Positions 1,492-2,202 of a stretch of 54,292 nt of DNA are shown piece after piece. The translations under genes and the position numbers were made by a program. The notes beneath the pieces are model-generated. The model did no database searches, was not told the origin of the DNA, and saw only the letters and a list, made by a program, of their open reading frames with translations. Numbering within the stretch: position 1 is the stretch's first letter; each line of letters begins with the position of its first letter. The DNA is from Candidatus Woesearchaeota archaeon. GTDB lineage: Archaea; Nanobdellota; Nanobdellia; Woesearchaeales; UBA10216. The stretch is from contig JACPIH010000017.1 in NCBI GenBank assembly GCA_016188155.1, forward strand, positions 1 to 54,292, read 5' to 3'.

Positions 1492-2202
1492 ATGGTCTTA
1501 ATTTGTGCCATTGATGAGGCGGGCAGTTTATTCTTTTAGCAGCTGTTGCAGATGCTAATCGATAAGTCTATAGGCCCCATCATCGGCCCGATGGTAATGT
1601 GCGGCGTGCTGACTGACGAGGAAGGCGCTGCCGAGCTGAAAAAGATTGGTGCGAAGGATTCAAAGCTCCTGTCTCCAAGGCAGCGGCAGCAGCTGTTTGG
1701 CAAGATAGTCAAAATTGTCAAGGGCTACAAAATCGTAATCATAAGCCCTGCCGAGATAGACGCCTCTGTCAAGTCAGATGATGGCATGAACCTGAACTGG
1801 CTCGAGGCGCACAAGTCTGCCGAGATTATCAATGCCCTGAATCCCGAAAAAATAATTATTGACAGCCCGAGCAACAACGTGAAAAATTACAGGAAATACC
1901 TTATTGAGCTGCTGAAAAACAAGAAAATCGAGGCTGTTGTGGAGCACAAGGCTGACGTCAACCATGTTGAGTGCTCTGCCGCGTCAATACTTGCGAAAGT
2001 TACCAGGGATGAGGAAATAGAAAAAATCAAGAAAGTTGTGGTTGAAGACTTCGGCAGCGGCTACCTGGCAGACCCTAAGACTATTGAATTCTTCGACAAA
2101 TACTTTGAGACTTATCCTGACATCTTCAGGAAGAGCTGGGCCCCTTACAGGAAGAAGGCTGATGGCAAGTGGCAGAGGAAGCTGGGCGAGTTTGAAGAAT
2201 AG
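1492..2202 (+). CDS. rnhB: ribonuclease HII, interrupted by a 45-nt in-frame insert (1527-1571)
   Basis: MVLICAIDEAG (1492-1524) then, in the same frame after the insert, GPIIGPMVMCGVLTDEEGAAELKKIGAKDSKLLS...VEHKADVNHVECSAASILAKVTRD. Confidence 0.85.
1527..1571 (+). other. candidate BHB-type mRNA intron within rnhB
   Basis: 45 nt with in-frame TAG; removal gives GCG GGC AGA GGC CCC (AGRGP); flanks GATGaGGC/GCCcCATC, GGGC/GTCT and TTAT/ATAA can pair. Confidence 0.55.

Follow-up and report, generated by a model that had tools for sequence, protein, structure and literature searches.

A BHB intron in the cbf5 pre-mRNA was reportedly described by Watanabe in 2002. The cbf5 gene encodes the archaeal dyskerin (a pseudouridine synthase), and its intron-bearing pre-mRNA is found in Sulfolobales and Desulfurococcales; both gain and loss of the intron have been described, and the comparative prediction of others has been called for (Yokobori 2009, PMC2738675). 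As of 2020, cbf5 was the only other BHB intron reported in archaeal mRNA in a paper that itself added one intron in a 5' UTR (PMC7714728). An earlier note on the DNA studied here had held that BHB introns in coding genes are rare, with cbf5 as the classic case and none known in rnhB. That statement fits our literature search, which found nothing relevant in open-licence papers on RNase HII genes (rnhB) with BHB introns or on such introns in DPANN or Asgard archaea; in those papers, confirmed cases in archaeal mRNAs are limited to cbf5, the one coding gene, and the 5' UTR intron. (An earlier notice elsewhere is possible.)

A 45-nt insert splits the active-site motif of a woesearchaeal rnhB gene

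The DNA that we analyzed, referred to below as the window, is a stretch of 54,292 nucleotides from a Woesearchaeota archaeon. The sequence of its rnhB gene (1492-2202) is exactly as the earlier note had claimed. In particular, the frame that begins with the ATG at 1492 reads MVLICAIDEAGS-LFF-stop, the codons that follow MVLICAIDEAG being AGT TTA TTC TTT TAG, and GPIIGPMV picks up again in the same frame at 1573. The 45-nt insert, which occupies 1527-1571, thus sits within the DEAG/RGP motif. When the insert is deleted, GGC AG is joined to A GGC CCC and the product is a 221-aa RNase HII with DEAGRGP; the predicted protein aligns along its core, DEAGRGP included, with solved archaeal RNases HII (best 1uax_A, E 9.6e-44). 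Exon 2 alone is matched by PF01351 (1573-2142, E 1.2e-35), which identifies the host gene as that of RNase HII, a DNA-repair enzyme, and the frame contains no further lesions. The catalytic Asp-Glu is located in exon 1, which is conserved in all intron-bearing relatives. Note that the codon split by the insert specifies the Arg of the Gly-Arg-Gly motif; this motif and a tyrosine together recognize the ribose 2'-OH where RNA meets DNA (PMC3025331). The features of the locus, as we read them, are as follows.

1492-1526, + strand: rnhB exon 1, reads MVLICAIDEAG and ends with the AG of the split Arg codon
1513-1520, + strand: putative outer (exon-exon) helix, 5' strand GATGAGGC, pairs with 1574-1581 GCCCCATC with one A.C mismatch
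1521-1524, + strand: putative 4-bp central helix, 5' strand GGGC (Ala-codon wobble base plus Gly codon), pairs with 1566-1569
1525-1527, + strand: putative 5' bulge AG^T, 5' splice site after 1526; AG invariant in 41 of 41 aligned sequences
1527-1571, + strand: putative BHB intron of 45 nt, in-frame TAG at 1537-1539; excision would give DEAGRGP
1528-1531, + strand: putative inner helix, 5' strand TTAT, pairs with 1562-1565 ATAA
1562-1565, + strand: putative inner helix, 3' strand ATAA, pairs with 1528-1531
1566-1569, + strand: putative central helix, 3' strand GTCT (3' end of the intron), pairs with 1521-1524
1570-1573, + strand: putative 3' bulge AT^AG, 3' splice site after 1571; NN^AG in every case
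1572-2202, + strand: rnhB exon 2, A of the Arg codon, then GPIIGP through to the stop; PF01351 match, dN/dS ~0.055
1574-1581, + strand: putative outer helix, 3' strand GCCCCATC, pairs with 1513-1520

The helices and bulges that the earlier note had proposed can all be found in the window RNA: an outer helix GAUGaGGC/GCCcCAUC, a central helix GGGC/GUCU with two G.U pairs, an inner helix UUAU/AUAA, and the bulges AG^U and AU^AG. The minimum free energy fold of the element is -22.1 kcal/mol (z = -2.1 against shuffled sequences), and shuffled window inserts attain 8/8 pairs in the BHB register at p ~0.001. Taken alone, the fold of this single insert is only suggestive of a BHB. Because its significance is weak (z of -2.1), we placed our reliance on comparative evidence.

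Inserts of differing sequence occupy the same codon in many archaea

Initial candidates were RNase HII genes whose Pfam match lacked the first 8-9 positions or that contained stops, a choice that involved no structural assumption; they came from a Pfam scan of 40 relatives and then from 16 more genes of the window's order. Every such truncated or stop-bearing gene that we read carries an insert at exactly the same codon, differing in sequence and length. A search of 85,462 genomes, bacterial as well as archaeal, with a DNA pattern that allowed a gap of 15-45 nt returned 34 matches. All 34 are rnhB genes from which an insert can be cleanly excised, and 33 of them are labelled archaea. The titles of the matching records name Woesearchaeota, Lokiarchaeota, Aenigmatarchaeota, Thermoplasmatales/Thermoplasmata, Thermoproteota and Bathyarchaeota, with one "archaeon" and one "bacterium". 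(The record titled "bacterium", L118, is probably mislabelled, because it holds an archaeal rnhB with the intron and its neighbor in the tree is a Woesearchaeota sequence.)

Insert lengths range from 16 to 45 nt and, for 42 distinct inserts, fall into the three classes modulo 3 as 16/16/10. This lack of preference for multiples of three argues that the inserts are not translated, or at least not constrained as peptides. Excision always produces AG^AGG, restoring Arg, and in all cases read the resulting motif is DEAGRGP, DESGRGP, EEAGRGP or a close variant. (The introns of Lokiarchaeota, L126-L152, from the Asgard phylum, are nearly all exactly 30 nt and usually have an in-frame stop a few codons in, whereas lengths vary elsewhere.)

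Covariation supports a BHB structure

We put 42 distinct cases in one fixed register and used 41 sequences to measure covariation. In this register the outer helix is formed by GAUGAGGC with the first codons of exon 2, the central helix by the Ala wobble base and the Gly codon with intron positions -6 to -3, and the inner helix starts from intron position 2; the bulges are AG^N on the 5' side and NN^AG on the 3' side. Across the 41 sequences, 89.8% of cells are paired over the whole BHB, and the covariation score is 0.552 compared to 0.191±0.015 in shuffles (0/500), falling to no more than 0.12 once the partner strand is slid by 1-3 columns. The central helix (columns 9-12:24-27) is paired in 97% of cells, with compensatory changes; its first pair (9:27) occurs as AU in 12 sequences, CG in 10, UA in 6 and GC in 4, so that all Watson-Crick types are represented. 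In the inner helix 94% of cells are paired, with compensatory changes at 4/4 pairs. (Two Lokiarchaeota inserts, L115 and L121, have no inner helix in the strict register.) On the 3' splice side, A30-G31-G32 is invariant in alignment A1. The 5' bulge is 3 nt (AGN), and the 3' bulge (NN^AG) always has 4 nt, one more than the canonical 3 nt. The predicted BHB substrate is slightly relaxed in that it combines this 4-nt 3' bulge with an imperfect outer helix, which has the A.C mismatch in the window and is 83% paired across the set. Note that a wobble-position preference can be seen in the outer-helix codons of exon 2, where the third base of CCN is never G in 42 intron-bearing genes but is G in 11 of 59 intron-less ones; the preference is modest, and we kept it out of the main evidence.

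A covariance model (R1) built from the register set was then run on whole genomes. It matches the window at 1513-1581 with 35.5 bits, the window itself being in the training set. Counted by genome, there are matches in 27/232 of the Asgard phylum, 26/359 of the window's own order, 5/393 of Thermoplasmatota (2 of them false) and 5/400 of Thermoproteota (1 of them false). Matches outside the training loci number 31 and comprise 26 new true rnhB inserts (25 by regular expression and one, L188, read by eye), 2 repeats of known inserts and 3 false matches. (The matches L156, L157 and L162, all below 27 bits and not rnhB-like, were discarded.) In the strict 8-bp register, at least 7/8 pairs form in 72% of the 25 new inserts compared to 1.2% of shuffled inserts. 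These counts are minimum values, since weak matches do not pass the strict filters; the intron-bearing genome G176, for example, was missed. Altogether there are 67 distinct same-site insert sequences besides that of the window, making 68 at one codon, in metagenome-assembled genomes of Woesearchaeota, Aenigmatarchaeota, Lokiarchaeota, Thermoplasmatota, Thermoproteota and Bathyarchaeota. We regard this comparative evidence, 68 distinct inserts in the same codon and strong covariation, as decisive for a BHB.

Selection on rnhB and the presence of a splicing endonuclease gene

When exon 2 of the window gene was compared with two intron-less relatives, dS was ~0.82 and dN/dS was 0.055-0.059. As judged from these alignments, exon 2 is under strong purifying selection and the gene is inferred to be functional. 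One PF01974 endonuclease gene each is present in G000 (the bin that holds the window contig), G005, G007 and G010, and PF01974 detected only one EndA subunit. The closest PDB entry to the G005 protein is 3iey_A (E 1.6e-37), the catalytic subunit of the (alpha-beta)2 enzyme of Nanoarchaeum equitans, which belongs to a class that has a broad substrate range and is reported to accept relaxed BHB substrates (PMC6379350). By analogy, the 4-nt 3' bulge would fit an enzyme of this class.

Two features of the surroundings of rnhB may be recorded here. Many genomes of the order have a second, divergent RNase HII-like gene (E ~1e-17 to 1e-28), often adjoining rnhB; they include G031, G032, G025, G038, G021, G176 and G184. 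In addition, a small helix-turn-helix-like frame ends just upstream of rnhB in L033, L034, L036, L074 and L083, and in several Woesearchaeota its stop overlaps or lies near the rnhB start (ATGA).

Alternative explanations for the insert

Bin G000 also contains an intact rnhB, on contig C1, the DNA of which is 86% identical to that of the window gene. This copy would be expected if the interrupted gene were a decaying pseudogene with a random insertion, the functional copy being elsewhere, and it literally meets what the earlier note had named as a possible refutation (a second intact rnhB in the genome, with the window copy decaying). The decay, however, was not borne out. The window contig (C38 of G000) is ~100% identical over 7.5 kb to contig C36 of G005, a genome that is ~82% complete and in which no RNase HII other than the interrupted gene was found, and the objection from a second copy falls away for that reason. 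G000, in turn, has its own divergent copy of the downstream VWA locus on C12 (69% identity), and its C1 region is no more than 86% identical to G005. Given the near-complete identity to C36 of G005 and the diverged copies that G000 has of its own on C12 and C1, the window contig was probably, indeed almost certainly, mis-binned into G000 from a sister species, and synteny and identity indicate that the intact C1 gene belongs to a species other than that of the window contig. Moreover, the low dN/dS and the absence of other frame lesions speak against decay, as does the interruption of the same site in dozens of species, for most of which no other RNase HII was found: G007, G008, G010 and G012, like G005, have no match but the interrupted gene, and this holds for 16 of 23 further intron-bearing genomes as well. 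A pseudogene is in our judgment extremely unlikely. That all the cases seen appear to come from metagenome-assembled genomes could point to an artefact of assembly or sequencing, but with the same site and the same architecture, in covarying sequences, present in assemblies from many sites and projects, such an artefact is next to inconceivable.

Two further readings would leave the insert in the message. In their shortness, their hairpin and their early stop the inserts are reminiscent of bypass elements, and in Lokiarchaeota many of them keep the frame with a length of exactly 30 nt; ribosomes might thus hop over the insert as in T4 gene 60, or shift frame in a programmed manner, with the hairpin acting in the message and no splicing. 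However, covariation is seen in just the pairs that make up a BHB, among them pairs of exon wobble bases with the 3' end of the intron; there is no matched take-off and landing codon that would give DEAGRGP, a Gly-to-Gly hop deleting the Arg-Gly of the motif; and the inserts occur only in archaea, where BHB introns are excised by EndA. Bypassing is accordingly ranked by us as very unlikely. The in-frame inserts with a single stop, such as those of 30 nt in Lokiarchaeota, might also be explained by stop-codon readthrough or an expanded genetic code, which would yield a protein with 7-15 additional residues in the motif. For the out-of-frame inserts this idea is refuted, and roughly two in three of the 42 lengths are not divisible by three; the inserts also differ in their stops and encode unrelated peptides, and the added residues would break up the Gly-Arg-Gly that binds the substrate beside the catalytic Asp-Glu (PMC3025331). 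We find it hardly credible.

A model for the excision of the rnhB intron

We are highly confident that the rnhB insert is a minimal archaeal pre-mRNA BHB intron that is removed by the tRNA splicing endonuclease, with the exons rejoined, although splicing is inferred and there are no RNA data. The BHB reading of the earlier note, including both of its cut sites, is supported by the differing inserts at the identical site in many archaea. What carries it is evidence from sequence: insertion at the same site, BHB covariation with compensatory changes in the central and inner helices, exact restoration of the frame and of DEAGRGP or a close variant, selection on the protein as seen in exon 2, and the presence of an EndA gene. 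Cleavage and ligation in vivo, and the identity of the enzymes acting on the rnhB substrate, are likewise inferred.

In the transcript, the codons flanking the site in DEAG/RGP(I/V) would pair with each other as the outer helix, the Ala wobble base and the Gly codon would form the 4-bp central helix with the four paired bases nearest the 3' end of the intron, and the intron would be closed by its own inner hairpin. The tRNA splicing endonuclease would cut both bulges, AG^N and NN^AG, and a tRNA-type ligase, presumably RtcB, would join the exons, rebuilding the AGA codon for the Arg of Gly-Arg-Gly and hence an active RNase HII. Unspliced rnhB message would meet an early stop or be read in the wrong frame.

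Gain and/or loss at a single site

In a tree of 125 exon 2 proteins, parsimony requires 25 changes to account for the distribution of the intron (mean for shuffled data 41.7), at least 7 of which are forced by well-supported branches, and one genus can include both intron-bearing and intron-less genes (the window and G004; L074 and L066). This patchy distribution implies repeated gain and/or loss at one site, a site that is used in several archaeal phyla. The split Arg codon is always AGA in intron-bearing genes and is AGA, AGG or CGN in intron-less relatives; the empty sites nearest the window have CGC and CGT, and set against the AGA-only use of intron-bearing genes they are unlike the traces that a very recent loss or gain might leave. 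Note that the intron-less sample comes from the window's order only, and that the tree does not separate an ancient origin from transfer or repeated insertion.

Our inference is that the rnhB site may be a ready-made landing place for BHB introns, because its near-invariant coding motif already contains both halves of the outer helix and one half of the central helix. A broader proposal is that this one site is a hot spot for BHB introns across Archaea (from a very early ancestor or through repeated mobility), with active-site codons serving as the exon half of the substrate and with RNase HII output dependent on, and possibly regulated via, the tRNA splicing enzymes. We are evenly divided on whether this proposal will hold.

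Implications and comparison with known systems

That a second coding gene is interrupted, at one codon and in lineages that range from DPANN to Lokiarchaeota, suggests that many archaea splice pre-mRNA with tRNA enzymes. The richness in introns of Lokiarchaeota at this site is also relevant to the kinds of splicing present in the closest archaeal relatives of eukaryotes. The rnhB introns are a ready set of mRNA substrates for EndA, and their gains and losses at one position form a natural series from which it might be learned how BHB introns arise, move and disappear. Of practical concern, gene callers can truncate intron-bearing rnhB, and the catalytic residues are then lost from the annotation.

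Like the cbf5 intron, the rnhB intron appears to be an EndA-type BHB intron in a protein-coding gene, with a patchy distribution and lineage-specific loss. The cbf5 intron, however, occurs in two crenarchaeal orders, whereas the rnhB intron occupies one exact codon in several phyla, including Lokiarchaeota and DPANN; the host genes also differ, and the rnhB intron is very short (16-45 nt). The intron of HVO_1309 in Haloferax volcanii is similar in being a BHB cut from mRNA by EndA, but it lies in a 5' UTR rather than in coding sequence and was studied in one species (PMC7714728). With the BHB introns of archaeal tRNAs the rnhB introns share shortness, a central 4-bp helix between the bulges and predicted cuts within the bulges; unlike them, they reside in an mRNA, use a protein-coding motif as the exon half and have a 3' bulge of 4 nt. 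The kind of intron, an EndA/BHB intron in pre-mRNA, is thus known, whereas the host gene, the recurrence at a single codon across phyla and the minimal size are, as far as can be told, new.
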